DNA of 64,000 bases from Pseudomonas sp. P818 (GTDB lineage: Bacteria; Pseudomonadota; Gammaproteobacteria; Pseudomonadales; Pseudomonadaceae), in NCBI RefSeq assembly GCF_000418555.1, contig NZ_ATKM01000001.1, forward strand, positions 62,001 through 126,000. The letters are read 5' to 3'. Under the pieces are notes generated by a model. It did no database searches. It saw only the letters and a program-made list of their open reading frames with translations, and had not been told where the DNA came from. Below are positions 2,710 through 21,661 of this stretch, in pieces. Position 1 is the first letter of the stretch; the number at the start of each line of letters is the position of its first letter. The position numbers and the translations under genes are program-made.

Positions 2710-2800
2710 GCCGACTGGCCCAGGTATGCGGGATCACGCTTTACCGTAGACGGCCGGTGGCCGACACGCCGCGTCGCGTCAGGCGACCAGGAGAGAAAGC

Positions 2801-3316: not shown

Positions 3317-3330
3317 TTCGGAAGACCACC

Positions 3331-4824: not shown

Positions 4825-4837
4825 CCGCCTTGTAACC

Positions 4838-4889
4838 GTGGGAGCGGCTTCAGCCGCGAATGCGTCTTCGCGGCCTTCGTCGCTCCCGC
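4838..4889. repeat. REP-type palindrome between tssC and hcp
   Basis: Begins GTGGGAGCGGCTTCAGCCGC and closes with CGCTCCC after a short interior, the common Pseudomonas REP pattern. It sits in the 153-base tssC-hcp gap, where it could form an mRNA hairpin that protects the upstream message or uncouples hcp expression. Confidence 0.75.
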
Positions 4890-4977
4890 GGCACATCCAA
4901 TGGATGCGCAAGGCGAGTGAGATTACCGGGGGCATCCCCACCTATACGCAGTGGCCCATGCCACCTCAGGAGAAAAC

Positions 4978-5466
4978 ATGGCTGTCGATATCTTCATCAA
5001 GATCGGTGACATCAAGGGCGAGTCTCAGGACAAGACCCACAAGGACGAAATCGAAGTGCTCAACTGGAGCTGGGGCATGTCCCAGTCCGGCAACATGCAC
5101 ACCGGCACCGGTGGCGGCGCGGGCAAGGTGAGCATTCAGGATCTGTCGCTGACCAAGTACGTCGACAAGGCTACCCCCAACCTGATGATGCATTGCTCCA
5201 GCGGCAAGCACGTGCCCAAGGTCACCCTGACCGTGCGCAAGGCGGGCGGTGATACCCAGGTCGAATACCTGATCATCAACCTCGAAGAAGTGCTGATCTC
5301 CTCGCTGAGCACCGGCGGTTCGGGCAACGACGATCGCCTGATCGAGAACATCACCCTGAACTTCGCCAAGGTCACGGTCGACTACCAGCCGCAGAAAGCC
5401 GACGGCACCAAGGAAGGCGGCCCGATCAAGTACGGCTGGAACATCCGTTCCAACGTCAAGATCTGA
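4978..5466 (+). CDS. hcp: T6SS tube protein Hcp
   Basis: A 162-residue Hcp-family protein starting MAVDIFIKIGDIKGES, with the family features WSWGMSQSGNMHTGTGGGAGKV and ENITLNFAKVTVDYQPQ. Hcp hexamers stack to form the inner tube pushed out by the sheath and can carry small effectors in their lumen. An in-frame upstream ATG (4951) exists, but AGGAG at 4968-4972 fixes the start at 4978. A small effector gene follows directly, consistent with an Hcp-delivered cargo. Confidence 0.96.
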   Translation: MAVDIFIKIGDIKGESQDKTHKDEIEVLNWSWGMSQSGNMHTGTGGGAGKVSIQDLSLTKYVDKATPNLMMHCSSGKHVPKVTLTVRKAGGDTQVEYLIINLEEVLISSLSTGGSGNDDRLIENITLNFAKVTVDYQPQKADGTKEGGPIKYGWNIRSNVKI

Positions 5467-5522
5467 TGCGGTTCGCCCTCGGTGCCATGTGCCGGGGGCG
5501 GGCGTAACAGGGAGACTCAGTT

Positions 5523-5978
5523 GTGGCAAAGCCTTCGTTTATCAATTTGTGGAAAGCCTATGAGGATATGTTGGTTGAATATCCTCAAGGCAATCCGTGC
5601 GATGGCCCCTGGGCCAACCAATGTGCCATTCGCATGAGTGTGGCGCTTAACAGCGAACGGACCCTGCAAGTCAACACTTCGACTTACAGTGAGCCTCGCT
5701 GTGCACACGGGCATGCCCGAGGAGCAGAGTCACTGGCCAATTGGTTATGGAAAAGGCCTCAGTTAGGCCCTCCCAAGGTCTACGGCAACAGTGCCGCAGA
5801 AAGGACCAGCCTGCTCGGTAAGACCGGTATTATTTTTTACAAGGATTTTTACCGTCAGCCTAACGATCCGGAAAACCGCCCCACCGGTGACCATATCGAC
5901 CTGTGGAATCGTGGCCAGACCCAAACCGGTGACTATTTCTATCGGGCCAAGGCAGTCTGGTTCTGGGAGCTGACGTGA
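5523..5978 (+). CDS. tae4: T6SS peptidoglycan amidase effector, Tae4 family
   Basis: A 151-residue protein matching Tae4 amidases (NlpC/P60-like fold), which cut the gamma-D-glutamyl-meso-DAP bond in the periplasm of rival cells. Cys34 lies in NQCAIRMS and His124 with Asp126 in TGDHIDLWN, the catalytic set known for this family. There is no signal peptide, as expected for a T6SS cargo. GTG start, with AGGGAG at 5509-5514. It is inserted between hcp and tssE and is followed by a one-base overlap with a periplasm-directed protein, the usual effector-immunity arrangement. Confidence 0.9.
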   Translation: MAKPSFINLWKAYEDMLVEYPQGNPCDGPWANQCAIRMSVALNSERTLQVNTSTYSEPRCAHGHARGAESLANWLWKRPQLGPPKVYGNSAAERTSLLGKTGIIFYKDFYRQPNDPENRPTGDHIDLWNRGQTQTGDYFYRAKAVWFWELT

Positions 5979-6433
5979 TGTACAGAGTTTCTTTTGTAGT
6001 ACTGCTGGGCACGTTGCTATTTACGGTCAATGCCTGCGCCACACAACCTCATCCATCATCACCGCCCGCAACCGAACCGACCATGCCAACCCATGCGACG
6101 TTCGCAGGACAGCCAATCAGTCTCAGCGATAGCGAGGGACGCTGCGCCTTGACCTATGGCAACCGGCCGGCACTGATAATGGATATGCAATGGCCTTGTC
6201 GGTTCAGCGAAGATCTGCAGAAGAACCTGCGAGTGGAATACTTCGAGCAAACACCGATCCTAATGGTCGAGCGAAGTGAACATCTCCCTGCCCCCAGCAA
6301 AGGCTGCAAGACCGACAGACAGCCTGTACGCCTGCATCATGACCGACTTGAGCCAGCCATGGTGGGCAGGATCGCTGCATGTGGACCTGCGCAATGGGAC
6401 CAGAAAGCATTTATCGGGATGTTCGACTGGTAA
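5978..6433 (+). CDS. Putative immunity lipoprotein for the Tae4 effector
   Basis: A 151-residue protein whose ATG shares its first base with the tae4 stop codon (TGATG). Residues 1-20 are a lipoprotein-like signal peptide ending in VNAC, with Cys20 as the predicted lipidated residue, followed by a Ser/Pro/Thr-rich linker. The mature part has several cysteines (GRCAL, WPCRF, KGCK, AACG). Position and predicted periplasmic location support a role protecting the producer from Tae4. I do not see clear similarity to the classical Tai4 fold, so the function is inferred from context. Confidence 0.65.
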
Positions 6434-6441
6434 ACCTGCGC

Positions 6442-6957
6442 ATGACCAGCCCCATGACCCCGCGCGAGCGCCTGCAGCCATCGCTGCTCGACCGCCTGAC
6501 CGACGATGACCCCAGCAATCCGCAGGAAAGCGCGGAGCGCCGCGTGCTGTCGCTAAACCAGCTCAAGGCCTCGGTGCTGCGAGACCTGACCTGGCTGTTC
6601 AACACCATCGCCCTGCTCGATGCCGATGCCACGCGGCACACGCCAGCCGGCACCTCGGTGATCAACTATGGCCTGCCGGCATTGGCCGGCAGCAGTGTGT
6701 CCGGGATCGACATCGCCGCCCTGGAAAGCCTGATCCAGCGCGCCATCGTCACTTTCGAGCCGCGCATCCTCGCCCATAGCGTGCGGGTGCGAGCGCATGT
6801 CGGTCACGAACAGATGAACCACAACGCGCTGAGCTTCGAGATCCAGGGCGACCTGTGGGCGCAGCCGGCGCCCCTGCCCTTGCTGCTGCGCACCGAGCTG
6901 GACCTGGAGTCCGGCCATGTGCAGGTGCTGCCCGCCGCGCAGCGGAGACGCTCATGA
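6442..6957 (+). CDS. tssE: T6SS baseplate protein TssE (gp25-like)
   Basis: A 171-residue gp25/TssE-family protein. It begins [19 protein letters not shown] and contains [25 protein letters not shown] and [15 protein letters not shown], the conserved EPR-containing core of gp25-like lysozyme-fold baseplate proteins. The ribosome site is weak; the ATG at 6454 (MTPRERLQ) is a possible alternative start. The stop overlaps the tssF start (ATGA), so the two genes are translationally coupled. Confidence 0.88.
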
Positions 6958-8749
6958 ACCCGCGTTTGCTGGAACTGTATAACCAGGAGCTGCAACACAT
7001 TCGCGATGGCGCGGCCGAGTTCGCCCGCGAATATCCGAAGATCGCCAGCCGCCTCAGCCTGTCCGGCCTGGAGTGCACCGACCCCTACGTCGAGCGCCTG
7101 CTGGAGGGCTTCGCCTGGCTGACCGCGCGCGTGCAGCTCAAGCTCGACGCCGAGTACCCGGTGTTCACCCACAATCTGCTGGAAATCGCCTACCCGCATT
7201 ATCTGGCGCCGACGCCGTCGATGACCGTGGTACAGCTGCACATCGATGCCAACGACGGCGCGCTCAATGGCAGCTTCAACCTGCCGCGCGACAGCGTGCT
7301 GCGCGCCACTCTCGGCAAGGACAGCCAGACCCCCTGCGAATATCGCACCGCACACCCGGTGACCCTGTGGCCGCTGCAGGTGGCGGACGCCGAATACATC
7401 AGCAATCCTGCCGCGACGCTTGGCCGTCTTGCCGCCAGCGAGCCGCGTGCCAAGGCTGCCCTGCGCATCACCCTGCGCAGCGGTGCCGAAATACCCTTCG
7501 CCAGCCTGGATCTGGACAACCTGCCGCTGTACCTCAACGGCCTCGACGAACTGCCGTTTCGTCTCTACGAGCAACTGCTGGGCAACCGCGTCGCGGTGTT
7601 CGCCCGCCAGCCGGGGCGCGACTGGGTCGAACGGCTGCCGGCCGACGCCTTGCGCCCGTGCGGCTTCGATGATGCCGAGGCGGCGCTGCCGGTAGTACCG
7701 CAGGCCTTCCAGGGCTATCGCCTGCTGCAGGAGTACTTCGCCCTCCCGCAGCGTTTTCTGTTCGTCGACTTCTGCAATCTGCGCCGCGCCGTGCGCCAGT
7801 GCAGCGGCAACGAGCTGGAGCTGATCGTGCTGTTCGATCGCCTCGACAGCCACCTGCAGAACCAGGTCGACGCCACCCAGTTCCTGCCGTTCTGCACCCC
7901 GGCGATCAAGCCGACCGCACACGGCCCATGGACTTCGAGATCCATTCGCTGCGCAGCGTCAGCGGCCATGGCAGTGGCCCGGAGCAGACTTTCCTGCCCT
8001 TCTATGCCGTGCGTGACCCCGCGCGCTATGGGCGCGATCAGGCCTACTACATCGTGCGCCGCGAGCCGCGCGTACTGTCGGCCGAACAGCGCCGCAACGG
8101 CACGCGATCTAGCTATGTGGGCAGCGAAACCTTCATCAGTCTGGTCGACAGCCACCAGGCTCCGTATCGCCATGACCTGCGCCAGCTCGGTCTCAGCGCC
8201 CTGTGCACCAACCGCGACCTGCCGCTGTTCATGAGCGTCGGCAGCGGCAAGAGCGACTTCACCCTGGCCGACAGTGCGCCGGTGCAGAGCGTGCGCTGCG
8301 TGGCCGGGCCGAGCCGTCCGCGCCCCAGCCCGGCGCACGACAACCAGGCCTGGCGGCTGATCAGCCAGCTGTCACTGAACTACCTGTCACTGGCCGAGCA
8401 GGGCCAGGGCGCCGCTGCCCTGCGCGAGATGCTGCGGCTGTATGGCGATGTGCAGAATCCGGCGTTGCAGCTGCAGATCGAAGGCCTGCGCGAAGTCAGC
8501 GCCAAACCCTGCACGCGGCGCCTGCCGATGCCCGGACCGATCGTCTTCGGTCGGGGTCTGGAAATCACCCTGGAGTTCGACGAGAACGCCTTCCGCGGTA
8601 CCGGGGTGTTTCTCCTCGGCGCAGTGTTCGAGCGTTTCCTGGCGCGCTACGTGTCCCTCAACAGCTTTACCGAGACGGTGCTGCGCAGCACCGAGCGCGG
8701 CGAGATCATGCGATGGAAAGCCCGGCCCGGCCGTCGTCCGAACCTCTAG
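6954..8749 (+). pseudogene. tssF: tssF (T6SS baseplate protein), broken by an out-of-frame deletion
   Basis: The reading frame from ATG 6954 encodes a normal TssF N-terminal half ([19 protein letters not shown] through FLPFCTPAI, about 318 residues) up to about base 7907. The matching C-terminal half (ADRTRPMDFEIHSLRSVSGHG onward, about 279 residues) continues from about 7910 in another frame to a stop at 8747-8749. In TssF proteins the stretch between CTPAI and DRTRPxDFE normally holds about 20 more residues (NLFxKRxDRI...), which are absent here. That points to a deletion of roughly 60-70 bases with a frame change. As written, the first frame would give a 426-residue hybrid ending at 8234. 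Start and end positions are normal. Confidence 0.85.
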
Positions 8750-9765
8750 ACACGCTTGCACAGATGCAGGCGCAGCCTTGGGAGTACGACTTCTTCCAGG
8801 CCTTGCGACGCATCGAGAACGAGCACCCGCATCTGCCGCGCCTGGGGCGTTCCCGACGCCTGGCAGACGATCCGCTGCGCCTCGGGCAGCGCCAGGAGGG
8901 CACTTTCGCCCCGGCCACCCTGGCCGCTGTGACCCCAGCCAGCGACGAGCGACCGGCACGTCTGGAACAGTATTTCTTCGGCCTCGGTGGGCCCAACGGG
9001 CCGCTGCCACTGCACCTGACCGAGTACGTGCGCGAGCGCCAGCGCAACCACGCCGACAGCACCAGCAAGCACTTCCTCGACCTGTTCCATCATCGCCTGC
9101 TGACCCTGTTCTATCGTGCCTGGGCCGAGGCCCGGCCGACCGTCAGCCATGACCGTCCCGACGATGATTACTGGTCGGCTCGCCTGGCCGCCTTCAGCGG
9201 TCGCGGTATGCCCAGCCTGCGCCAGCGGGGCTTGCTGGACGATGCGGCGAAGCTGCACTACAGCGGTCACCTGGCCGCGCAGACGCGTTACCCCGATGGC
9301 CTCAAGGCGATCCTCGCCGATTACTTCGGCGTGCCGGTGCAGATCGAGGAATACGCCGGCAGCTGGCTCAGCCTGCCCGAGCGCACGCGCCTGGGCGTGG
9401 AGTCCAGCCAGTTGGGCGTGGACTTCTGCCTGGGCAGCCAGGTCTGGGACCGCCAGCACAGCTTCCGCATCTGCTTCGGTCCGCTGACGCTCGAGCAGTA
9501 CAACGCCATGCTGCCCGATGGCGACTCGTTCGCCGCGCTGGTGGCCTGGGTCGCCGAATACCAGGGCGACGAACTGGACTGGCAACTGAATCTCGTACTG
9601 CAGCGCGAGGAAATCCCCGCGCTGCGCCTCAACGGCCAGGCTCGCCTGGGCTACACCACCTGGCTCGGCCAGCCACAGCACGACGCCAGGGACCTGGTGC
9701 TGGCCCGCCATCACGCCACAGCGACCCCGCCGGCGGATCAATCAAGGAGAACTTCACATGGGTGA
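8713..9765 (+). CDS. tssG: T6SS baseplate protein TssG
   Basis: A 350-residue TssG-family protein starting MESPARPSSEPLDTLAQM, with the characteristic PWEYDFFQALRRIE and YFFGLGGPNGPLPLHLTEY segments near the N-terminus. TssG forms the TssF-TssG wedge with TssE and TssK. The ATG at 8713 overlaps the end of tssF, so normal expression would depend on coupling to tssF translation; the downstream tssF frame reaches this overlap only if translated separately. The last residues overlap the clpV start. Confidence 0.92.
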   Translation: MESPARPSSEPLDTLAQMQAQPWEYDFFQALRRIENEHPHLPRLGRSRRLADDPLRLGQRQEGTFAPATLAAVTPASDERPARLEQYFFGLGGPNGPLPLHLTEYVRERQRNHADSTSKHFLDLFHHRLLTLFYRAWAEARPTVSHDRPDDDYWSARLAAFSGRGMPSLRQRGLLDDAAKLHYSGHLAAQTRYPDGLKAILADYFGVPVQIEEYAGSWLSLPERTRLGVESSQLGVDFCLGSQVWDRQHSFRICFGPLTLEQYNAMLPDGDSFAALVAWVAEYQGDELDWQLNLVLQREEIPALRLNGQARLGYTTWLGQPQHDARDLVLARHHATATPPADQSRRTSHG

Positions 9766-12430
9766 AATCAGTCGTACCGCGCTGTTCGGCAAGCTCAACA
9801 GCGTCGGCTACAAGGCCATCGAGGCCGCCACCGTGTTCTGCAAGCTGCGTGGCAACCCCTACGTCGAGCTGGCGCACTGGTTTCACCAGCTCCTGCAGCT
9901 GCAGGACTCCGACCTGCACCGCATCATCCGCCAGTTCAGCCTGGAGCCGGCACGCCTGGCGCGTGACCTGACCGACGCACTCGACCGCCTGCCACGCGGC
10001 TCGACCTCGATCACCGACCTGTCCTCGCACGTCGAGGAAGCGGTCGAGCGTGGCTGGGTCTACGGCAGCCTGATGTTCGGCGAGCACCAGGTGCGCACCG
10101 GCTACCTGATCATCGGCATCCTCAAGACGCCGAGCCTGCGCCAGGTGCTGCTGGGCCTGTCGGGCGAGTTCGCCAAGATCAAGGTGGAAACCCTCAGCGA
10201 GCGTTTCGACGAGTACGTCGGCGATTCGCCGGAGAACAACCTGGCCGCCAGCGACGGTTTCGCCGCCGCCGCACCGGGCGAGGCCAGTGGCGCCATGGCG
10301 CCGGCGGCGATGGGCAAGCAGGAGGCGCTCAAGCGCTTCACCATCGACCTCACCGAGCAGGCGCGCAAGGGTGAGCTCGACCCCATCGTTGGCCGCGACG
10401 AAGAGATCCGCCAACTGGTCGATATCCTCATGCGTCGCCGGCAGAACAACCCGATCCTCACCGGCGAGGCGGGCGTCGGCAAGACTGCCGTGGTCGAAGG
10501 CTTCGCCCTGCGTATCGCCGCCGGTGACGTGCCGCCTTCGCTCAAGGATGTCGAGCTGCGCAGCCTCGACGTCGGCCTGCTGCAGGCCGGCGCCAGCATG
10601 AAGGGCGAGTTCGAGCAGCGCCTGCGTCAGGTCATCGAAGATGTGCAGGCCTCGCCCAAGCCGATCATCCTGTTCATCGACGAAGCCCACACCCTGGTCG
10701 GCGCCGGTGGCGCGGCTGGTACCGGCGACGCGGCCAACCTGCTCAAGCCGGCGCTGGCGCGCGGCAGCCTGCGTACCGTGGCCGCCACCACCTGGGCCGA
10801 GTACAAGAAGCACATCGAGAAGGACCCGGCGCTGACCCGCCGCTTCCAGGTGGTGCAGGTGCCCGAGCCGTCCGAGGACAAGGCGCTGTTGATGATGCGC
10901 GGCGTGGCCTCGACCATGGAGAAGCACCATCAGGTGCAGATCCTCGACGAGGCCCTGGACGCCGCGGTCAAGCTCTCGCACCGCTACATCCCGGCGCGCC
11001 AACTGCCGGACAAGTCGGTCAGCCTGCTCGACACCGCCTGCGCCCGCGTGGCCATCAGCCTGCACGCCGTGCCGGCCGAGGTGGACGACAGCCGCCGGCG
11101 CATCGAAGCGCTGGAAACCGAACTGCAGATCATTGCCCGCGAACACGCCATCGGCATCGACGTCAGCCTGCGCCAGGCCAACAGCGAGAGCCTGCTCGCC
11201 ACCGAGCGCGAGCGCCTGGCCGAGCTGGAAAGCCGCTGGGCCGAAGAGAAGCAGCTGGTCGATGAACTGCTGGCCACCCGCGCCAGCCTGCGCGAAAGCG
11301 CCGGCGTGGTCGATCAGGACAGCGGCACCGATCACCAGGCCCTGCGCGCGCGGCTGGTCGAATTGCAGCAGCGCCTGAGCCAGCTGCAGGGCGAAGCCCC
11401 GCTGATTCTGCCGACCGTCGATTACCAGGCGGTGGCCTCGGTGGTGGCCGACTGGACCGGCATCCCGGTCGGGCGCATGGCGCGCAACGAGGTCGAGACC
11501 GTGCTCAACCTCGACAGCCTGCTGGGCAAGCGCATCATCGGCCAGGACCACGCGCTGAAGATGATCGCCAAGCGCATCCAGACTTCTCGCGCCGGCCTCG
11601 ACAACCCCAACAAGCCGATCGGCGTGTTCATGCTCGCCGGCACCTCCGGCGTCGGCAAGACCGAAACCGCGCTGGCGCTGGCCGAGGCGCTGTATGGCGG
11701 TGAGCAGAACCTGATCACCATCAACATGAGCGAATTCCAGGAAGCGCACACCGTCTCCACCCTCAAGGGTGCACCGCCCGGCTACGTCGGCTACGGCGAA
11801 GGTGGCGTGCTGACCGAGGCAGTGCGTCGCCGGCCGTACAGCGTGGTGCTGCTCGACGAGGTGGAAAAGGCCCACCCGGACGTGCACGAGATCTTCTTCC
11901 AGGTGTTCGACAAGGGCGTGATGGAAGACGGCGAAGGGCGCCTGATCGACTTCAAGAACACCCTGATCCTGCTCACCACCAACGCCGGTACCGAACAGGT
12001 GGCGCGCCTGTGCCAGGACCCGGACAACCTGCCCGACCCGGAAAGCATCGCCCGCGACCTGCGGCAGCCGTTGCTGGAGATCTTCCCGCCGGCGCTGCTC
12101 GGCCGTCTGGTAACCATCCCCTATTACCCGCTCAGCGACGCCATGCTCAAGGCCATCACCCGCCTGCAGCTGGGGCGCATCAAGAAGCGCATCGAAAGCA
12201 CCCACAAGGTGCCCTTCGACTACGACGAGGCGGTGGTCGACCTGGTGGTTTCGCGCTGCACCGAGAGCGAGAGTGGCGGCCGGCAGATCGACGCCATTCT
12301 CACCAACGGCATGCTGCCGGACATGAGCCGCGAGTTCCTTACCCGCATGATGGAAGGCAAGCCGCTGGCCGGTGTGCGCGTCAGTGTGGCCGACAACGAC
12401 CTGAACTACAGCTTCGCCGACAACGCCTGA
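9758..12430 (+). CDS. clpV: T6SS sheath-recycling AAA+ ATPase ClpV (TssH)
   Basis: An 890-residue ClpB/ClpV-type ATPase. The N-terminal domain starts MGEISRTALFGKLNSVGYKAIE. The first AAA+ module has Walker A GEAGVGKT and Walker B LFIDEAHTLVGAGG. A coiled-coil middle region follows (about 410-540), then the second module with GTSGVGKTE and VVLLDEVEKAHPDVHEIF. ClpV extracts TssC from contracted sheaths so the machine can be reused. AAGGAGA at 9744-9750 supports the start. The large frame on the opposite strand is a shadow. Confidence 0.97.
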   Translation: MGEISRTALFGKLNSVGYKAIEAATVFCKLRGNPYVELAHWFHQLLQLQDSDLHRIIRQFSLEPARLARDLTDALDRLPRGSTSITDLSSHVEEAVERGWVYGSLMFGEHQVRTGYLIIGILKTPSLRQVLLGLSGEFAKIKVETLSERFDEYVGDSPENNLAASDGFAAAAPGEASGAMAPAAMGKQEALKRFTIDLTEQARKGELDPIVGRDEEIRQLVDILMRRRQNNPILTGEAGVGKTAVVEGFALRIAAGDVPPSLKDVELRSLDVGLLQAGASMKGEFEQRLRQVIEDVQASPKPIILFIDEAHTLVGAGGAAGTGDAANLLKPALARGSLRTVAATTWAEYKKHIEKDPALTRRFQVVQVPEPSEDKALLMMRGVASTMEKHHQVQILDEALDAAVKLSHRYIPARQLPDKSVSLLDTACARVAISLHAVPAEVDDSRRRIEALETELQIIAREHAIGIDVSLRQANSESLLATERERLAELESRWAEEKQLVDELLATRASLRESAGVVDQDSGTDHQALRARLVELQQRLSQLQGEAPLILPTVDYQAVASVVADWTGIPVGRMARNEVETVLNLDSLLGKRIIGQDHALKMIAKRIQTSRAGLDNPNKPIGVFMLAGTSGVGKTETALALAEALYGGEQNLITINMSEFQEAHTVSTLKGAPPGYVGYGEGGVLTEAVRRRPYSVVLLDEVEKAHPDVHEIFFQVFDKGVMEDGEGRLIDFKNTLILLTTNAGTEQVARLCQDPDNLPDPESIARDLRQPLLEIFPPALLGRLVTIPYYPLSDAMLKAITRLQLGRIKKRIESTHKVPFDYDEAVVDLVVSRCTESESGGRQIDAILTNGMLPDMSREFLTRMMEGKPLAGVRVSVADNDLNYSFADNA

Positions 12431-12435
12431 GCCCG

Positions 12436-12465
12436 AGCGCGGGTCGGCTAGTGCCGGCCCGCGCT
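12436..12465. other. GC-rich hairpin between clpV and vgrG
   Basis: A 13-base stem with one G-U pair (AGCGCGGGTCGGC / GCCGGCCCGCGCT) and loop TAGT. No T tract follows, so it is not a simple intrinsic terminator; it may stabilise the clpV 3' end. Confidence 0.5.
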
Positions 12466-12488
12466 ATGGCAGGCCGGAACCCCGACCT

Positions 12489-14429
12489 ATGTTCTTCGCC
12501 CAATCTTCCCGCTTTGCCCGCATTACCAGCCCGCTCGGGCCGGACGTTCTGCTGCTGCGCTCGATGCACGGCAGCGACGAGCTGGGCCGCCTGTTCGAGT
12601 ACGAGCTGCAACTGGTGTCCCACGATGCCAACCTCGATCTCAACCAGTTGCTCGGCAAGCCGCTGACGCTCTCGGTGCAGCAGCATGGCGGTGGCGACCG
12701 GCACTTCCACGGCATCGTCGCCGCCTGCGGGCAAAGCGTCGACCGTGGCCAGTTCGCGGCTTATCGGGTCACCCTGCGGCCCTGGCTATGGCTGCTCAGC
12801 CGCACCTCCGACTGCCGCATCTTCCAGCACATGAGCGTGCCGCAGATCATCAAGCAGGTGTTCCGCGACCTGGGGTTCTCCGATTTCGAAGACGCACTCA
12901 GCCGCCCGTACCGCGAGTGGGAGTACTGCGTGCAGTACCGCGAAACCAGCTTCGATTTCGTCAGCCGGCTGATGGAGAAGGAGGGCATCTACTACTACTT
13001 CCGCCACGAGGCCGATCGCCACGTGCTGGTGCTGGCCGATGCCTACGGCGCCCACGTGCCTGCGCCCGGTTACGCCAGCGTGCCCTACTACCCGCCGGAC
13101 GGTCAGCACCGCGAGCGCGACCACATCAACGACTGGCAGCTGGCCCAGCATGTGCAGCCGGGCTCGATGGAACTCAACGACTACGACTTCCAGCGCCCCA
13201 GCGCGCGCATCGACGTGCGCTCGGTCATGCCGCGCCCGCACAGTGCCGGCGACTATCCGCTGTACGACTACCCGGGCGCCTACGTGCAGAGCAGTGACGG
13301 CGAGCAGTACGCGCGCAATCGCATCGAGGCCCTGCAGAGTCTGCACGAGCGCGTCGAGCTCGGCGGCAGCGTGCGCGGCATCGCCTCGGGCAACCTGTTC
13401 AGCCTCACCGGCTTCGGTCGCGCCGACCAGAACCGTGAATATCTGGTGGTCTGCGCGCGTTATCACGTCCTGCAGGAGTCCCTGGAGAGTGGCAGTGGCG
13501 GCGGTGGCCAGTTCGAGTGCCAACTCACCTGCACCGACGCCCAGCAGACTTTCCGCCCGCTGTGCGGCACGCCCAAACCAATGGTACAGGGGCCGCAGAC
13601 CGCCGTGGTGGTCGGCCCCGCCGGCGAGGAGATCTGGACCGACCAGTACGGCCGGGTCAAGGTGCACTTCCACTGGGACCGCCACGACCAGTCCAACGAG
13701 AACAGCTCCTGCTGGATTCGCGTCTCGCAGAACTGGGCCGGCAAGAACTGGGGTGCGATCCAGATTCCACGCATCGGCCAGGAGGTCATCGTCAGCTTCC
13801 TGGAGGGTGATCCCGACCAGCCGATCATCACCGGCCGCGTCTACAACGCCGAACAGACCGTGCCCTACGACCTGCCCGCCAACGCTACCCAGAGCGGCAT
13901 CAAGAGCCGCTCCAGCAAGGGCGGCACGCCGGCCAACTTCAACGAAATCCGCATGGAGGACAAGAAGGGCGCCGAGCAGCTGTACATCCACGCCGAGCGC
14001 AACCAGGACATCGTCGTCGAGGTGGATGAAACCCACTCGGTGGGCAACAACCGGGTCAAGAGCATCGGCATGAACGAGACCGTCACCATCGGCAACAACC
14101 GCCTGCGTGCGGTGAAGCTCGATGACGTGCTGCTGGTGGGCTCGACCAAGACCGACAGCATCAGCCAGAGCTACCTCATCGAGGTCGGCCAGAACCTGCG
14201 CCTGGTCTGCGGCAAGAGCATTCTCGAACTCAACGCCAGCGGCCAGATCAACCTCAGCGGCGTGGCGATCAACTTCCACGCCAGCGGCGACGCTGAATTC
14301 AACACCGGCGGCGTGCTCAACCTGAACATCGGCGGCGGCCCTGGCGCCACCCCCGATGGTCAGGGTGATCAGGGCAGCATCGATGCAGCCGTCAAATCCA
14401 TGTTCGGGCAAGACAAAGGAAACGTCTGA
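12489..14429 (+). CDS. vgrG: T6SS spike protein VgrG (TssI)
   Basis: A 646-residue VgrG. The gp27-like part is at about residues 1-370 (FAQSSRFARITSPLG, YRETSFDFVSRLMEKEGIYYYF). The gp5/OB domain holds the signature QTAVVVGPAGEEIWTDQYGRVKVHFHWDR. The repeat-rich beta-helix follows (HSVGNNRVKSIGMNETVTIGNN). No extra C-terminal effector domain is visible. It is the trimeric spike onto which the PAAR-Rhs protein encoded two genes downstream should dock. Start at ATG 12489; the ribosome site is weak. The last base is shared with the next start codon. Confidence 0.96.
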   Translation: MFFAQSSRFARITSPLGPDVLLLRSMHGSDELGRLFEYELQLVSHDANLDLNQLLGKPLTLSVQQHGGGDRHFHGIVAACGQSVDRGQFAAYRVTLRPWLWLLSRTSDCRIFQHMSVPQIIKQVFRDLGFSDFEDALSRPYREWEYCVQYRETSFDFVSRLMEKEGIYYYFRHEADRHVLVLADAYGAHVPAPGYASVPYYPPDGQHRERDHINDWQLAQHVQPGSMELNDYDFQRPSARIDVRSVMPRPHSAGDYPLYDYPGAYVQSSDGEQYARNRIEALQSLHERVELGGSVRGIASGNLFSLTGFGRADQNREYLVVCARYHVLQESLESGSGGGGQFECQLTCTDAQQTFRPLCGTPKPMVQGPQTAVVVGPAGEEIWTDQYGRVKVHFHWDRHDQSNENSSCWIRVSQNWAGKNWGAIQIPRIGQEVIVSFLEGDPDQPIITGRVYNAEQTVPYDLPANATQSGIKSRSSKGGTPANFNEIRMEDKKGAEQLYIHAERNQDIVVEVDETHSVGNNRVKSIGMNETVTIGNNRLRAVKLDDVLLVGSTKTDSISQSYLIEVGQNLRLVCGKSILELNASGQINLSGVAINFHASGDAEFNTGGVLNLNIGGGPGATPDGQGDQGSIDAAVKSMFGQDKGNV

Positions 14430-14857
14430 TGAGCTACACCACTCAAGAACTGAGCCTGCAACTGCCCGGCAAGGACCTGCTGGACAGCAGCATCAACATC
14501 CTGCGCCTCAATGACCTCGGTACCTCACTGGTGATCACCCGTGGTGCATTGGGCGACGGTGAAACCCTGCGCAGCCACTTCGAGGCCCAGGTCGCCAAGC
14601 TCGCTAAACAGGTCAAGGATCTGCGTTGCAGCGCCGTGCAGGATGTCCAGGTCGGCCCGGCGCAGGCCATCGTCGGCGTCGAGCTGCGCAGCCAGTTCAG
14701 CAAGGGGCCGGAGCAGGTCTACCAGTTCCAGCTCGGCGTGTTGCTGGCCGATGGTCGCCGCCTGCTCGCCCTCAGCTACGTCAAACCGACGCCGCTCGAT
14801 GATGCCGACGCCGCGCACTGGGCGCAGATCAAGCACAGCCTCAGCCTCAACGGATGA
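14429..14857 (+). CDS. DUF1795/DcrB-like Eag-type T6SS effector chaperone
   Basis: A 142-residue DUF1795-family protein (SLQLPGKDLLDSSINILRL, FQLGVLLADGRRLLALSYVKP). Proteins of this family (EagR/EagT) bind the N-terminal transmembrane helices of prePAAR effectors, shield them before secretion and help load the effector on VgrG. The position exactly between vgrG and a prePAAR-Rhs gene, with one-base overlap with vgrG and a six-base gap to rhs, fits that role. No signal peptide is seen, consistent with a cytoplasmic chaperone. Confidence 0.88.
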   Translation: MSYTTQELSLQLPGKDLLDSSINILRLNDLGTSLVITRGALGDGETLRSHFEAQVAKLAKQVKDLRCSAVQDVQVGPAQAIVGVELRSQFSKGPEQVYQFQLGVLLADGRRLLALSYVKPTPLDDADAAHWAQIKHSLSLNG

Positions 14858-14863
14858 CCTGCG

Positions 14864-17800
14864 ATGTCTGATGCGCTCTGGGCCGCCCGGCTCGGCGACG
14901 ATCTGCTGCACACCACATTGCTCGCCGACATCGTCGGCGGCGTGCTGGAAGTGGCTGCCTATGCCGCCATCACCGCTGTGGCCTGTGCTGCGGTGGTCGC
15001 CGCCACCGGCCTGACCGTCCTCACCTTTGGTCTCGGTGGATTTGCCCTCGCCGCAGTAGTGGGTATCGCCGTGGGGGTCGGCATGAACAAAACCGGCTGG
15101 GACAAGGGGCTCACGACCTTCTGCGAAGGCCTGGGCAACGCCATCTCCCCGCCCAATGTCCAGGCCAAGATTCTCACCGGCGCCAACAAGACCAAAACCA
15201 ACGGCCTGCCTTCCGCGCGCGCCGCTGGCAAGTTGGGCAGCGCCGCCGCGCCGGCAGGCACCGAGCTGGAGCAGGCACCGCCCGCCGAGGAGCCTGAGCC
15301 CAGCTTCCTCGACATGGCCAAGAGCTTCTTCAGTGAGATGTGGCAGCCGACGGTTGCCCAGCCGGCACCTGGCGTCATCCCCTGCCCGCTGGATTCCATC
15401 GAGTGCAAGAAGCACCCGCCGATGCCGGTGCAGCTGCTCGCCGAAGGCTCGATCAAGGTCAGCATCGAAGGCCAGCCGGCAGTGCGCAGCGGTGATCGCA
15501 GCACCTGCGAAGCCACGGTGGTGGAAAGCGGCAACATCTCGCCGAACGTGCGCATCGGTGGTGACGCCGTGGTGGTGCAGCCGATTCGCAGCGGCAAGAC
15601 CCCCGGCATCGGCCTGGCCCTGACTGTGCTCATGGCGCTACGTGGCAACCCACGCAAGCTGTGCAGCAAGCTGCCCTGCCTGGTCGCCGGTTTCGCCGGC
15701 AACATGGCCATGGGCGGCGCGACCGCCTATGCCACCAACTCCATCGTCAACGCCCTTGGTTCGGCCAGCAGCGGTGCACCCAATCCGGTGCATGCCAGCA
15801 CCGGGGCCAAGGTGCTCGGTGAAGACGATGACCTCGACTTCGTCCTGCCGGGGCTGATGCCCATCGAGTGGCAGCGCTTCTACAGCAGCCGTGACGAGCG
15901 CCGTGACGGTTTGCTGGGTGCTGGCTGGAGCCTGCCGTTCGAGATCGCCGTGCAGGTGCGCGCCCACCCGCAGGGTGGCGAAGCGCTGACCTATATCGAC
16001 GAGCAGGGCCGCCCCATCGAGATTGGCAGCCTGCCACCGGGCGATGCCTGCTACAGCCCGGGTGAAGGTTTGAGCTTCCGCCGCGATGAAGGCGGCGCGC
16101 TGCTGGTGGAAAGCGTCGATGGCCTCTACCGCCTGTTCGAGCCGTTGCCCGAGTCACCTGACCGTCTGCGCCTGAGCAAGCTCGGCGACCGCAACGACAA
16201 TCGCCTGCTGCTCGAATACGACGCCACTGGCCGGCTGCGCGCCGTGCGCGATGGCCATAACCAGCTGTGCATCGAACTGATTGCCGACGCCCGCCACCCG
16301 CAGCGCCTTGGCCGGGTCGAGCGCCTGTTCGCCGATGAGCGGCGCGAGGTGCTGGTCGCCTACGCCTATGACGCGCAGGGTGATCTCAGCGAAGTCCGCG
16401 ACGACAAGGGCCAACTGCTGTGTCGCTTCGTCTACGACAGTGGCCGTCGTCTGATCGAACATCAGCGTCCCACCGGTCTGCGCTGCTTCTATGAGTGGGG
16501 TGAGTTTCAGGGTGCCGATGGCCGCGAATGGCGGGTGACACGGCACTGGACCGACGACGGCGACGAATACCGGCTGCAGTACGATCTGGATGCGGGGATC
16601 ACCCGGGTCACCGACGGCCTTGGTCGCACCAGCGAACGCCACTGGAACAGCCAGTACCAGATCACCCGCTATCGCGACGCCCTCGGCCAGCTCTGGCTGT
16701 TCGAATGGAACGACGAGCGCCAGCTGCTGGCCGCCGTCGCACCGGACGGCGCGCGTTGGCAATTCGCCTATGACGAATCCGGCAACCTCTGCGAAACCCT
16801 CGACCCGCTGGGGCGTCGCGACTTCACTCAGTGGCTCGGCCACTGGTCGCTGCCGCAAGCCGAGACCGACGCTGCCGGCAATGCCTGGCAGTACCGCTAT
16901 GACAAGCGCGGCAACTGCATCGCCGAGATCGACCCGCTGGGCCATGTCACCCGCTACCGCTACGACACCAGCGGCCTGCCGGTGGAGATCATCGACGCCA
17001 GCGGCAAGCGCAAGACCCTGCGCTGGAACGCCCTCGGACAGCTCACCGAGCAGGTCGACTGTTCCGGCTACCCCACGCGCTTCGCCTACGACGAGCGCGG
17101 CAACCTGGTGCAGATCACCGACGCCCTCGGCGAGATCACCCGCTACCACTACGACAGCCAGGGACGCCTGCTGCAGACGCAACTCGCCGACGGCCGCTGC
17201 GAGGAGTTTCAACGCGACGCCATCGGCCAGCTCAGCGCCTACCTCGATCCTGCCGGCAAGCCCGTGCGCTATCGCTATGACCGCCGTGGCCAGGTGCGTC
17301 AGCGCATCGATGCCCTGGGCCGCAGCGTCGGCTTCGAATACGACGCCTATGGTCGCCTGCTCGCCCTGAGCAACGAGAACGACGAACGCTACCGCTTCAC
17401 CTGGGACGTGCTCGACCGTCTCACCGCCCAGCATGACCTAGACGACAGTGCCCGCCATTATCGCTATGACCCGCAGGGCAACCTCATCGGCCTGGCCTAT
17501 ACCCCGGCGCCCCACGGCACCGGCCTGGGTAGTGTCCCCGAGGCGCCGCCGGCACCGATCATCCACCGCTTCGAGCGTGATGCCGTTGGTCGGATGATCG
17601 CCAAGCACACCGATGACGGTCGCACCGAGTACGCCTATGACCCGCTCGACCGCCTGCTCAGCATCGACCTCACCGCCGTCGACGGCCAGGTGCAGTCGTT
17701 GGCCTTCGCCTACGACGCTCTTGGCCAGCTGCTCAGCGAGCAGAGCGCTGCTGGTACCCTGCAGCATGCCTACGACGAGCTCGGCAACCTGCTGGAAACG

Positions 17801-19333
17801 CAACTGCCTGACCAGCGCCGTATCCGCCGCCTGTACTACGGCAGCGGCCACTTGCAGTTGCTCCACCTGGATGATCAACTGGTCAGCCGCTTCGAGCGTG
17901 ACCGCCTGCATCGCGAGGTGCTGCGCACCCAGGGGCAGCTCGTTACCCGTAGCCAGTACGACCGAACCGGACGCCTCACCGCACGCCTGCGTCGGCGCCT
18001 GGAGCAACCCGTGCAGCTGCCGGCCGAAGCCGAGCGGCGCTACGCCTACGATCCCAGCGACAACCTGATCGGCCGCCTCGACCGTGACCCGGCCAGCCAG
18101 CGCGAACAGAAGCAGCAGCTGCACTACGATGCCAGCGGGCGCATCATCGCCAGCCAGGACCTGATTCGCGGCAATCTGGAAACCTACAGCTACGACGCGG
18201 CCGCCAACCTGCTGCACCCGGTCGGTGGTGATGCCGCCAGCAGCGGCTGGGTGCGCCACAACAAACTGCTCACCTACCAGGACAAGCGCTACCGCTACGA
18301 CGCCTTCGGCCGCCTGGTGGAAAAACGCAGCGGTCGTCACCAGGTGCAACGGCTGAGCTACGACGCTGAACACCGCGTGCGGGAAGTCACCAACAACGAC
18401 GGCAGCCGCGTGGTCATGCACTACGACCCGCTCGGCCGGCGTATCGGCAAAAGCCACTACGACGCCCATGGCGTGCTGCTCGGCCAGTCCGACTTCACCT
18501 GGGACGGCCTGCGCCTGCTCAGCGAAACCCGCAACGGCCGGCACAGCCTCTACCTCTACGACGAAGGCAGCTACGACCCGTTGGCGCGCGTCGACGGCCA
18601 GGGCGAACACGCCCGCCTGCGCTATTACCACACCGATCCGAACGGGTTACCGCAGCAACTCACCGAAGACGACGGCCGCTGCATCTGGCAGGCCCGCTAC
18701 CAGGTCTGGGGCAACACCCTGGCCGAACAGCAGGAAAGCTTTTTTGTCGAAGAGCAGAACCTGCGCTTCCAGGGCCAGTACCTGGACCGCGAAACCGGGC
18801 TGCACTACAACACCTTCAGGTTCTACGATCCGGATATCGGACGGTTTATCAGCCCGGATCCGATAGGGTTGCTGGGAGGTGCCAATCTCTATCAATACGC
18901 TCCTAACCCGCTGGCGTGGTCAGACCCGTTAGGGTGGGCTCCATGGGCTCGTGGAAAATTTGATGACTGGTTCAACGCAGCATCTATAAACGATATCAAT
19001 AGTAATAAAGCGGCAGTCTCTGAAGCTCTGCGAGGCGCAGGGAAAATGCATGAAATGTTCCCAGTATCACTCGCAGCCAAAGCTAAAGAGCTCGGCTTTA
19101 CTGCTCAGGAGCTAAAAAAATATGTTGTTGAGACCAAGAGGATTACCTTTGTTAATGTCACCGATTCAAAGGGAAGGCCTGTTCCCGATGGTTCACACCA
19201 TGGAAGCCGTGCGGGTAGACATTTCCATAATAAATTAATTGCAGATTTGGAAGGTTCTACCAGCAAAAGAGAGGCTAAGATGATTATTGCCAAGCATCAT
19301 AGAGCTCATATGAAACTAAGTAGGTGCACATAA
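14864..19333 (+). CDS. rhs: PAAR-Rhs T6SS effector with C-terminal toxin tip
   Basis: A 1489-residue polymorphic effector. Residues about 15-75 hold two hydrophobic helices (AAYAAITAVACAAVVAATG, then GGFALAAVVGIAVGVG), the prePAAR/Eag-binding region. A PAAR domain lies at about 165-250 (IECKKHPPMPVQ, SGDRSTCEATVVESG, VRIGGDAVVVQP). Many YD repeats (RYRYDTSG, RYHYDSQG, RYRYDAFG) form the Rhs shell. The core ends at about residue 1360 with PDPIGLLGGANLYQYAPNPL and SDPLGW, where Rhs proteins are normally cleaved. The last about 130 residues are encoded by visibly AT-rich DNA and are His-rich (MHEMF, GSHHGSRAGRHFHNK, KHHRAHM). I infer a metal-dependent nuclease-like toxin but cannot name its family. 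Confidence 0.93.
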   Translation: MSDALWAARLGDDLLHTTLLADIVGGVLEVAAYAAITAVACAAVVAATGLTVLTFGLGGFALAAVVGIAVGVGMNKTGWDKGLTTFCEGLGNAISPPNVQAKILTGANKTKTNGLPSARAAGKLGSAAAPAGTELEQAPPAEEPEPSFLDMAKSFFSEMWQPTVAQPAPGVIPCPLDSIECKKHPPMPVQLLAEGSIKVSIEGQPAVRSGDRSTCEATVVESGNISPNVRIGGDAVVVQPIRSGKTPGIGLALTVLMALRGNPRKLCSKLPCLVAGFAGNMAMGGATAYATNSIVNALGSASSGAPNPVHASTGAKVLGEDDDLDFVLPGLMPIEWQRFYSSRDERRDGLLGAGWSLPFEIAVQVRAHPQGGEALTYIDEQGRPIEIGSLPPGDACYSPGEGLSFRRDEGGALLVESVDGLYRLFEPLPESPDRLRLSKLGDRNDNRLLLEYDATGRLRAVRDGHNQLCIELIADARHPQRLGRVERLFADERREVLVAYAYDAQGDLSEVRDDKGQLLCRFVYDSGRRLIEHQRPTGLRCFYEWGEFQGADGREWRVTRHWTDDGDEYRLQYDLDAGITRVTDGLGRTSERHWNSQYQITRYRDALGQLWLFEWNDERQLLAAVAPDGARWQFAYDESGNLCETLDPLGRRDFTQWLGHWSLPQAETDAAGNAWQYRYDKRGNCIAEIDPLGHVTRYRYDTSGLPVEIIDASGKRKTLRWNALGQLTEQVDCSGYPTRFAYDERGNLVQITDALGEITRYHYDSQGRLLQTQLADGRCEEFQRDAIGQLSAYLDPAGKPVRYRYDRRGQVRQRIDALGRSVGFEYDAYGRLLALSNENDERYRFTWDVLDRLTAQHDLDDSARHYRYDPQGNLIGLAYTPAPHGTGLGSVPEAPPAPIIHRFERDAVGRMIAKHTDDGRTEYAYDPLDRLLSIDLTAVDGQVQSLAFAYDALGQLLSEQSAAGTLQHAYDELGNLLETQLPDQRRIRRLYYGSGHLQLLHLDDQLVSRFERDRLHREVLRTQGQLVTRSQYDRTGRLTARLRRRLEQPVQLPAEAERRYAYDPSDNLIGRLDRDPASQREQKQQLHYDASGRIIASQDLIRGNLETYSYDAAANLLHPVGGDAASSGWVRHNKLLTYQDKRYRYDAFGRLVEKRSGRHQVQRLSYDAEHRVREVTNNDGSRVVMHYDPLGRRIGKSHYDAHGVLLGQSDFTWDGLRLLSETRNGRHSLYLYDEGSYDPLARVDGQGEHARLRYYHTDPNGLPQQLTEDDGRCIWQARYQVWGNTLAEQQESFFVEEQNLRFQGQYLDRETGLHYNTFRFYDPDIGRFISPDPIGLLGGANLYQYAPNPLAWSDPLGWAPWARGKFDDWFNAASINDINSNKAAVSEALRGAGKMHEMFPVSLAAKAKELGFTAQELKKYVVETKRITFVNVTDSKGRPVPDGSHHGSRAGRHFHNKLIADLEGSTSKREAKMIIAKHHRAHMKLSRCT

Positions 19334-19738
19334 ATGTCAAGTGAAATTAAAAATGTTCATGTATGGGTAGGTAGTAATTTCTCGCAAGAGGACGAATACA
19401 TGAGCTATTTCGAGATAGATCACTCTACCGAAGGTGATTTTGATGATCCAAACTACAAACTTTGTGGCTTCTGCAGAGATATTGGTATTGTTTGGTATGA
19501 CGAAGATTTCATTGGTATTATTCCCCGTTGCGAGCATGAGGTTTCGCTAGATGAAATTCTGACCGAAGCCGCTGTAGATGAAGATGAACTGCCGTTGGTC
19601 AAGGCGCGTTGTGAGGCGCTTGGAATCAAGAAAGCCAATGCGATTTTTTGGTACCAAGACGCAGATCTGACTCTCAAACAGCCTATTAAAGATAGTTATA
19701 ACGGTCTGAAATACATAGGCGTATTTCAAGGAGATTAA
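19334..19738 (+). CDS. Imm22-family immunity protein
   Basis: A 134-residue acidic cytoplasmic protein starting directly after the rhs TAA. It fits the immunity-22 family: an N-terminal VHVWVGSNFSQEDEY, the core STEGDFDDPNYKLCGFCRDIG, then YDEDFIGIIPRCEHEV, NAIFWYQDADL and C-terminal GLKYIGVFQGD. Imm22 proteins are known as neighbours of polymorphic toxins. It should neutralise the Rhs C-terminal toxin in the producing cell, and the lack of a signal peptide implies a cytoplasmic target. The DNA is AT-rich like the toxin tip, suggesting the two moved together. Confidence 0.88.
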   Translation: MSSEIKNVHVWVGSNFSQEDEYMSYFEIDHSTEGDFDDPNYKLCGFCRDIGIVWYDEDFIGIIPRCEHEVSLDEILTEAAVDEDELPLVKARCEALGIKKANAIFWYQDADLTLKQPIKDSYNGLKYIGVFQGD

Positions 19739-19770
19739 GCGAAAAAGGAACAGGTTTATTGTTAGGAATT

Positions 19771-20136
19771 ATGAGTGCTTTTGTTAAAAATAAAAAGCTA
19801 CTATTCAATGGTGCTGAAAGCGATTTCTACGTGTTCAGCTCAATATTGGATACGCCAGATTTTGGACAAGTGCTCTTCGACAACCGGCAGGTCCAGTATT
19901 TATGGGAACTGGGTGAGCGGCAGGCAGATGCGCTGGTAGGTCTGATTCCTGGCGCAAGAAAACATATGGATTTTCCAGGCGATACGCCCGCGTATAAGCA
20001 GGGAAACCTTGCGCTCTACGTGCAGCGCGTTACTGGTCGAGACGACAACCACTCGGTACTCATCGTCGTAGCTGCAGGCGAATCGCAACCTGCGCGCTTC
20101 GTGATCGATTTGTGTGGCGTGTTTGTGGACGAGTAA
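19771..20136 (+). CDS. Small protein of unknown function beside the Rhs toxin-immunity pair
   Basis: A 121-residue protein (MSAFVKNKKLLFNGAESDFY...) that I do not recognise. AGGA lies five bases before ATG 19771; a TTG at 19759 would add four residues. There are no membrane segments or signal peptide. The first half is encoded by AT-rich DNA like imm22, the second half by more ordinary DNA. It lies 32 bases after imm22 on the same strand. It could be a second immunity protein, an orphan left by an earlier toxin exchange, or unrelated. Confidence 0.7.
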   Translation: MSAFVKNKKLLFNGAESDFYVFSSILDTPDFGQVLFDNRQVQYLWELGERQADALVGLIPGARKHMDFPGDTPAYKQGNLALYVQRVTGRDDNHSVLIVVAAGESQPARFVIDLCGVFVDE

Positions 20137-20202
20137 AGCTGCCCTCTGATTAGCGTCAGGCTCAAATCATGGTTTTTTTGCGATTGCTGCTATGGCAAAA
20201 GG

Positions 20203-20258
20203 CTTACACGTCGAAGCGCAATGAGCCTCTCCCGTCGCATGCGTAGGCTGGCTAATCT
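20203..20258 (+). promoter_or_regulatory. Promoter of the Rsm-type RNA, with a GacA-like half-site
   Basis: TAATCT at 20253-20258 is a plausible -10 for a start near 20265. CTTACA at 20203-20208 matches the right half of the known GacA upstream element (TGTAAG-N6-CTTACA). The 18-base window ending there is centred about 65 bases upstream of the predicted start, where GacA sites of rsm RNAs usually lie. The left half (TATGGC) is poorly conserved. Confidence 0.5.
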
Positions 20259-20264
20259 ACTCAC

Positions 20265-20370
20265 ACCTACCGGGAACTGGATGTCCCGAGTCACGGAAGA
20301 CAGACCGCGCCAGGATGGCAAACGACAGGATGTCGGAAGGTCATGAAAAACCCGCTTCGGCGGGTTTTTT
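20265..20370 (+). ncRNA. RsmX/RsmY/RsmZ-type small RNA that sequesters RsmA/CsrA
   Basis: About 106 bases with no open frame but six GGA motifs, several displayed in hairpin loops. CGGGA/TCCCG encloses a loop with TGGAT (20271-20288). GCCA-GGA-TGGC is at 20309-20319. CGACA-GGA-TGTCG is at 20323-20335; its ACAGGATGT core closely matches the best known CsrA/RsmA ligand. Single-stranded GGA copies lie at 20295 and 20335. It ends in a strong intrinsic terminator. RNAs of this design titrate RsmA/CsrA and are switched on by GacS/GacA. The ends are estimates, and I cannot tell which of the X, Y or Z types it is. Confidence 0.82.
20346..20370 (+). terminator. Intrinsic terminator of the Rsm-type RNA
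   Basis: AAAAACCCGC-TTCG-GCGGGTTTTTT: a GC stem with a TTCG tetraloop and a run of six T. It ends the small RNA on the plus strand; the A tract on the other side could also help stop leftward transcripts. Confidence 0.92.
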
Positions 20371-20453
20371 GTTGCCTGCAGAAAAGTCAGGCGACGCTGA
20401 ACGCTGGTAGCCAGGCATGACTCAGGTCTGCAAGTAAATCCGAGCCCTTCCTG

Positions 20454-21605
20454 TCAGTCCGCCGTGGCCAGAACCTGTGTATTACGCCCGGCGTGCTTGG
20501 CGCGATAGAGCGCGGTGTCGGCTTTGAGCAGCATGCCGGTGACGTCCTCGGCGACGGGGCTGGTGCTGCCGTAAACACCGGCGCTGAAGCTCAAGGCGAT
20601 GGTCTTGTCGTCAACCTGCGCCGCGTGCTGGCTGAGGGATTGGCGAAGCTGATCGACCAGTTCCAGCGCGCCACTGGCGCCGGTGCCGGGCAGAATCAGC
20701 AAAAACTCCTCACCACCATAACGGCCGATGCTGTCGTTACGCCGCAGCCGTTGCTGGAGATGGTCCGCGCAGTGCCTGAGCACGGCATCGCCGACCAGGT
20801 GGCCGTGGCTGTCGTTGATCTGCTTGAAGTGATCCAGATCGAGCATGGCGATGGACAGCGGCGTGCGTTGGCGGCGGGCACGCTCCAGCTCGTCGGTGAG
20901 TTGTTCGAGTATCGCCAGGCGATTGGGCAATCCGGTAAGCGTGTCGCGCAGAGCGGTCTGGCGCAGCTCCGATTCGATGCGCTCGCGCGACAGCAGCACC
21001 AGACCGAAAGAGAACATGATGATGGTGGCGGCGCCGAGGGCGACCGATACGCTCTGTTTCAGGTTGCTGACGTCGTAATGCATCTCCGCCGGCGCACCGC
21101 TGAGGATCACTACCACGCGGATGCCCAGGCCGAACAGGCTGATGCCTGCACCGATCATCAGGATTCGGTGGGCGCGCCCGCCGAGCACGGCATGAAGGCG
21201 GCTCAGGTGCAGAATCACCAGACATTGGCTGAACAGCAGCAGGCAGGCGACCAGTTGGCGGGGTTCCTGGGTGTCGATCAGCAGGCTGAGTAGCACGCCC
21301 AGCAGCAGTGGGAAGGCAAAGGCCAGCCGCCATGGTGGGCGGCGGCCGTGGATCAGCGGCAGGCTGACCGTGTAGAACGCCAGAGCGGTGGACAGCAGCG
21401 TGTTGGCCAGCACGTAGCTGATCCACATCGACACCTGACCGAACAGGGTGAAGCCGATGTAGGCCAGCGAGTGGGACAGCATGCCCAGGCCGGTGGTGAG
21501 CATGCCGTCGCGATGACGCAATTGGCCCACCAGGATCAGACAGCTGCCCATGATCACGGCGACCAGTGCGACGGCTCCGAACAGTGTCTGAGTGTGGGCG
21601 ATCAT
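20454..21605 (-). CDS. Membrane-anchored diguanylate cyclase (GGDEF)
   Basis: A 383-residue protein with about seven hydrophobic segments in residues 1-205 and a GGDEF domain at about 215-380. The active-site motif is GGEEF (catalytically competent type), and RRND five residues before it is the RxxD inhibitory site for product feedback. DTLTGLPNR and MLDLDHFKQINDSHGH are standard domain motifs. It should make cyclic di-GMP at the inner membrane in response to an unknown signal. Start at the ATG at 21605 (MIAHTQTLFG) with AAGAAGG upstream; a longer frame adds 14 residues. Confidence 0.93.
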   Translation of the reverse strand: MIAHTQTLFGAVALVAVIMGSCLILVGQLRHRDGMLTTGLGMLSHSLAYIGFTLFGQVSMWISYVLANTLLSTALAFYTVSLPLIHGRRPPWRLAFAFPLLLGVLLSLLIDTQEPRQLVACLLLFSQCLVILHLSRLHAVLGGRAHRILMIGAGISLFGLGIRVVVILSGAPAEMHYDVSNLKQSVSVALGAATIIMFSFGLVLLSRERIESELRQTALRDTLTGLPNRLAILEQLTDELERARRQRTPLSIAMLDLDHFKQINDSHGHLVGDAVLRHCADHLQQRLRRNDSIGRYGGEEFLLILPGTGASGALELVDQLRQSLSQHAAQVDDKTIALSFSAGVYGSTSPVAEDVTGMLLKADTALYRAKHAGRNTQVLATAD

Positions 21606-21661
21606 GTCAGCCTTCTTGTTTTCTGATCTGCGTTGACTCTGGGGCAATTCCCCTCACGGGC

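Follow-up and report, generated by a model that had tools for sequence, protein, structure and literature searches.

A probable second rsmX small RNA gene downstream of gyrB in a close relative of P. chengduensis

The window analysed here is a 64-kb stretch of DNA from a Pseudomonas which, judging by its sequences, is close to P. chengduensis. A predicted small RNA gene, hereafter referred to as rsmX-B, lies at 20265-20370 on the forward strand, flanked by the right part of a T6SS cluster (1624-20136, forward strand), which is recognised by family matches and is a neighbour and not a part of the small RNA, and by a convergent gene for a GGDEF diguanylate cyclase (20454-21605, reverse strand; GGDEF, 151.7 bits). 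The T6SS genes in 1624-20136 are those for TssA, TssC, Hcp, Tae4, TssF, TssG, ClpV, VgrG, a DcrB-like protein, PAAR-RHS and Imm22 and a further small ORF, with TssM, TssJ, TagH/Fha and an ABC-type ATPase, for which no family stood above cut-off among the matches listed, encoded farther upstream. In its gene order and its TagH, the cluster presumably resembles the H1 cluster of P. aeruginosa. Located in the T6SS core at 5523-6433, with hcp on one side and the baseplate genes on the other, are a gene for a Tae4-type amidase effector (59.8 bits, cut-off 27) and, after it, a small ORF that has no Pfam match and may be its immunity gene. At 19334-20136, PAAR-RHS is succeeded by an Imm22 (DUF4284) gene and then by a second small ORF that matches nothing in Pfam or NCBIfam; its homologues (87-89%) adjoin rsmX in two other genomes, G085 and G348, both without this T6SS cluster. 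In the window's genome, the 37.7 kb that separate gyrB from rsmX hold near their left end, just behind gyrB (L200:3631-4536), a gene for a T6SS effector of the Ssp4 family (NF053808, 362 bits, cut-off 300).

The listed ORF of the cyclase extends to 21647 from a TTG start (397 aa) and probably starts too far upstream. An ATG at its residue 15 yields a protein of 383 aa, which is also the length of the orthologue ORFs, and the longer frame, with its additional stretch at 21606-21647, has a stop codon in 8 of 9 close orthologues, the exception being that of the window itself.

When the whole window was compared with Rfam, a single match reached the gathering score, namely RF02144 (rsmX) at 20265-20370 on the forward strand (69.6 bits, the gathering score being 56, with a window-wide E of 9.8e-11), and the model was spanned from end to end (positions 1-114 of 114). 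This match is the strongest test of the identity of the RNA, and the stretch very probably encodes RsmX, a known RsmA-sponge small RNA. An Rsm-type RNA at 20203-20370 had been proposed in the initial annotation, with a covariance-model search using the Rsm families as a means of checking it; the type is upheld by that search and can be narrowed to RsmX by the full-length match above the gathering score. The proposed start has to be given up, as the RNA begins near 20265, a position set by where the Rfam match starts and not by a mapped 5' end, and 20203 belongs to the CTTACA half of a GacA-type site. With its full-length match, GGA hairpins, GacA-type upstream activating sequence (UAS), intrinsic terminator and length of about 106 nt, the RNA is like the RsmX family, which was matched above cut-off in 234 of 398 genus genomes. 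For a member of the family, it has a fairly low score (69.6 bits, against up to 125.7 among the genus-sample matches listed), and it follows either gyrB or a T6SS cluster. It is also unlike RsmY (RF00195), to which it gives 30.1 bits against a gathering score of 57, and RsmZ (RF00166), among whose matches it does not appear; these are separate families with the same expected function, and both are represented in this genome.

The genome carries two rsmX copies, A on contig C17 (82.6 bits) and B on contig C1 (the window copy, 69.6 bits), as well as one rsmZ (124.1 bits) and one rsmY (114 bits), and both rsmX copies give rsmY matches below the cut-off. One match to RsmA/CsrA and a GacA-family regulator encoded beside uvrC (NF007018, 317.8 bits, cut-off 280) were also identified. 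On these sequence grounds, the window RNA is considered to be an ordinary Gac/Rsm sponge RNA and the second rsmX copy of the genome. In P. mendocina ymp, presumably a related species, the rsmX copies are quite possibly at the same two loci as here. Multiple RsmX copies in that strain are mentioned in the available text of PMC4950607, which cites Moll et al. 2010. P. brassicacearum NFM421 likewise has two rsmX genes in one genome, RsmX-1 and RsmX-2, with a closely similar UAS, and RsmX-2 is made only with GacA as judged by Northern blot; unlike that tandem pair, the copies described here are on separate contigs and are 71.4% identical over aligned positions (PMC7911923, in the passages available). 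A literature search covering titles and the openings of abstracts returned no published account of this rsmX locus, which is a new instance of a curated family and possibly one already listed in print.

The minimum-energy fold of the 106-nt RNA alone comprises four GGA-bearing hairpins, a GACC/GGUC closing stem and a terminator, with a folding energy of -38.8 kcal/mol (z = -2.32; 3 of 200 shuffles were as low). Hairpin 1 (20271-20288; CGGGA-ACUGGAUG-UCCCG, with GGA in the loop) is predicted by the fold and forms in the B copies, not in the A copies as aligned. The remaining hairpins are present both in the fold and in the alignment, namely hairpin 2 (20290-20301; GUC-ACGGAA-GAC, loop ACGGAA), where one G-C to A-U double change separates copy B from copy A and whose GUC/GAC stem is absent from the centroid structure, hairpin 3 (20309-20319; GCCA-GGA-UGGC, with a GGA loop) and hairpin 4 (20323-20335; CGACA-GGA-UGUCG). 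The closing stem (GACC at 20303-20306 with GGUC at 20339-20342) encloses hairpins 3 and 4 and, like the intrinsic terminator stem-loop (20347-20368), is given by the Rfam alignment and the fold. Hairpin 4 is the very hairpin spelled out in the initial annotation, which was right about the presence of GGA hairpins but counted three of them where the fold has four. Its strong terminator is likewise seen in the Rfam alignment and the fold, though a plain sigma-70/terminator scan of 20100-20460 reported none, probably because the T-run pairs into the stem.

Six GGA triplets occur in the window rsmX, one of them in a strict ANGGA context, and four are held in loops whose closing stem has three or more Watson-Crick pairs. 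When both strands of the remainder of the window were taken as background, in 12,686 overlapping stretches of 79 nt, none held as many such loops and 11 held three. The longer stretch 20203-20370 folds no better than its shuffles (z = -0.42) and its opposite strand folds better (z = -2.93), and both of these folds are misleading because promoter DNA is included.

A GacA-type UAS, TATGGCAAAAGGCTTACA, was recognised at 20191-20208 on the forward strand by its likeness to the P. brassicacearum UAS, with which 15 of its 18 letters agree as printed in PMC7911923. A search allowing up to three mismatches returned no other site of the kind in the window (0.02 expected). The UAS pattern was found at two places in the 5.09-Mb genome, one before each rsmX, and at none for a reversed-pattern control; the pattern was built from the window site and the P. 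brassicacearum UAS, and as both rsmX sites were already known, what the search adds is the absence of a third. CTTACA stands 62 bases before the RNA at both rsmX genes (in the window and on C17), rsmY has a perfect TGTAAG-N6-CTTACA at -63, and no CTTACA was seen within 150 bases before rsmZ. The GacA-like half-site noted earlier at about 65 bases upstream is therefore part of a full 18-base site. A -10 had also been noted, and a -10-like hexamer, TAATCT, is indeed present at 20253-20258 on the forward strand and identical in 12 aligned copies of rsmX-B from different genomes, with no -35 hexamer recognised. The plain scan found no consensus sigma-70 promoter in 20100-20460, a result which fits an activator-dependent promoter though it is no evidence for one. 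The UAS shows at most single-base variants in the 12 aligned copies; in the copy of genome G028 it is more changed and the -10 reads TACTCT.

Thirteen copies of rsmX-B were found, one in each of 12 genomes (that of the window among them) and one in P. chengduensis DSM 26382, the nearest named relative met (cyclase 96% identical; the same rsmX, 69.3 bits). The 12 genomes are not a random sample, nine of them (window's own included) having been reached through a search for the cyclase, two through a second rsmX of similar score and the twelfth through the gyrB beside its rsmX. Five of the 80 loci of the comparison that gave P. chengduensis were scanned with Rfam, and rsmX was seen only in P. chengduensis. 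Over aligned positions, identity to the window copy is 92.4-100% for the remaining 12 B copies and 70.5-73.3% for the 12 A copies included in the comparison. Each of the 13 B copies has both a UAS-like and a -10-like site as well as a terminator, and in the alignment of promoter and RNA (12 B copies, all but that of G028) the conserved block runs from the UAS to the terminator, with the sequence before the UAS varying by genome. Two rsmX-A copies about 1.5 kb apart are present in G099 (L162, L170; G099:C1:3724642-3726267), and the copy number of the sponge RNAs therefore varies within the group.

When the named structure was examined on 25 copies (24 distinct), 94.3% of the cells were paired, against 30.7-48.5% for slid versions of it. 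Double changes were counted in 23 cells, where shuffles gave 8.7 and none of 500 reached 23; the double changes fall in only two pairs, each one A/B difference, and that number of pairs was matched by 233 of 500 shuffles, while the number of further pair types was equalled or exceeded by 500 of 500. For hairpin 1 the paired cells amount to only 70%, since as aligned it does not form in copy A, and RNAalifold, on the same alignment, kept one of the two double-change pairs and left hairpin 1 out. With double changes in only two pairs, covariation adds little, and the identification is carried by the family match.

The constant neighbour of rsmX-B, within this group only, is gyrB, which lies upstream on the same contig and strand in 12 of 12 genomes, the RNA being likewise placed downstream of gyrB in P. 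chengduensis. The gap between the two is 77 bases in G084, G099 and G223, like which P. chengduensis is arranged, and 139 bases in G028; it is intermediate (3,725-9,617 bases) in G348, G085, G008 and G012 and large in the window's genome (37,668), G198 (46,898), G269 (45,288) and G390 (38,523), these four gaps holding the T6SS cluster described above. Outside the group, no known rsmX place is near gyrB in the other eight of the 20 genomes compared (G001, G010, G011, G013, G014, G018, G023 and G065), where the two are on other contigs or far apart. In a gyrB tree, whose midpoint root serves for drawing only, G028 is more distant and has rsmX directly behind gyrB, and this arrangement is therefore probably the older one; rsmX-B most likely had its older place right after gyrB. 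The tree has T6SS genomes in two of its parts, the window's genome (G000) and G269 with G008 (support 100/99) and G198 and G390 in the other (support 91/95), a distribution that would fit either a single gain of the T6SS followed by several losses or more than one gain.

A ClpV at least 98% identical to that of the window was found once each in 4 of 13 genomes searched, the next best match (66%) being in the thirteenth, G013, which is without rsmX-B. Distant ClpV matches (46-52%) were obtained in G099, G223, G348, G008 and G028, and these five genomes are therefore not without other ClpV-type genes. The gyrB-rsmX gap of G085 and G348 contains Rhs and immunity-gene remnants, sequences which point to loss of the T6SS there. 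ORFs in the gaps of G012 and G085 are taken by us to resemble an IstA/IstB pair. The initial annotation had seen meaning in the adjacency of the RNA to the T6SS locus, a claim that the comparison does not support, as this cluster is absent from 8 of the 12 genomes with rsmX-B and it is gyrB that is constant. The RNA is thus not linked to this T6SS wherever it occurs, and the T6SS, being present in 4 of the 12, was rejected as its natural partner.

A meaning had similarly been attached to the neighbouring cyclase. A search of 398 genus genomes gave cyclase matches at E <= 1e-80 in 44, and the matches at 91% identity or more, found in nine genomes including the window's own, were used as orthologues. 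In these nine, the distance from rsmX-B to the cyclase is at most 0.2 kb in seven, 1.6 kb in G390 and 43 kb in G223. No cyclase match at E <= 1e-80 was obtained in G008, G012 and G028, all of which have rsmX-B. The cyclase is a frequent but not a fixed neighbour of rsmX-B, and the significance given to its adjacency finds no support, with no match in 3 of the 12 genomes and a distance of 43 kb in another; as a fixed partner it was rejected. About 43 kb of other genes separate the two in G223 (G223:C1:4102030-4144973; L186, L204, L205, L191). ORFs in this stretch presumably resemble efflux and transfer genes.

Since gyrB is constant and the T6SS is present in some genomes only, the neighbourhood provides no evidence of a special link, and as RsmX should work through titration, in trans, the neighbour gains nothing obvious. 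A functional tie between the RNA and the T6SS, through co-inheritance or through a local RNA concentration favouring T6SS messages, would be in keeping with the position of this cluster between gyrB and rsmX-B in all four genomes having it (13 searched), with the location of these four in two parts of the gyrB tree and with the control of T6SSs by RsmA/RsmN in three Pseudomonas species according to the accessible part of PMC10482370. However, such a tie is improbable in view of the eight genomes that have the RNA and no such cluster, the placement of the RNA 77-139 bases behind gyrB in 4 of the 12 genomes and in P. chengduensis, and a sequence that is nearly unchanged without the cluster and identical to the window copy over aligned positions in G223, where this T6SS is absent; titration would, moreover, be expected to work in trans. 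It is also highly unlikely, though conceivable, that the gyrB-rsmX junction is preferred by an H1-like T6SS island because an adjacent Rsm sponge would render the newcomer immediately Gac-responsive; at the edge of the island the rsmX-B promoter stays intact, and the cluster was found only at this place (4 of 4 genomes, 13 searched).

A further reading, of rsmX-B as a decayed and silent extra copy, might appeal to its bit score, which at 69.6 is below the 82.6 of copy A, and to the presence of three other Rsm RNAs that could cover for it. This is very improbable, as the 13 copies are 92.4-100% identical and keep the terminator and the GGA hairpins, and the UAS and TAATCT are kept in the 12 aligned copies, with variants in G028. 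That the locus holds only a terminator and chance GGA triplets after the last gene of the T6SS stretch, with no separate RNA, is hardly credible: any intergenic terminator gives a hairpin and the consensus promoter scan was empty, but the covariance model was matched with E = 9.8e-11, none of the 12,686 background stretches has as many GGA loops, and the unit is conserved directly behind gyrB where this T6SS is missing. We hold with strong confidence that 20265-20370 is a second rsmX gene, specifying a Gac-controlled sponge RNA of about 106 nt.

This reading as a second rsmX draws on the sequence family, the predicted structure, the upstream site, the conservation and the presence of genes for GacA and RsmA; the transcription of the RNA, its dependence on GacA, its binding of RsmA and its targets would follow the Gac/Rsm scheme, in which phosphorylated GacA activates rsmX, GGA hairpins capture RsmA and the repressed messages are translated (as outlined in the available parts of PMC7366521 and PMC10482370). 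Phosphorylated GacA would act through 20191-20208 and turn on transcription from about 20265, the GGA hairpin loops would capture RsmA dimers, and RsmA-repressed mRNAs would thereby be freed anywhere in the cell, quite possibly including those of this T6SS, with the total sponge dose set by rsmX-B together with rsmX-A, rsmY and rsmZ. The H1-, H2- and H3-T6SS of P. aeruginosa, the K1-T6SS of P. putida and the T6SS of P. syringae are given as RsmA/RsmN targets in the accessible text of PMC10482370, and the neighbouring T6SS may therefore well be a target too; its control by rsmX-B may well be exerted through global titration and not through adjacency.

The locus also advises caution in reading function from a neighbourhood, as in this group the RNA is fixed behind gyrB and the surrounding genes vary by genome, comprising the T6SS cluster, insertion-sequence-like genes or other genes. 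For this Pseudomonas, a probable fourth Rsm sponge RNA, with its candidate promoter located, joins the list of the Gac/Rsm parts.
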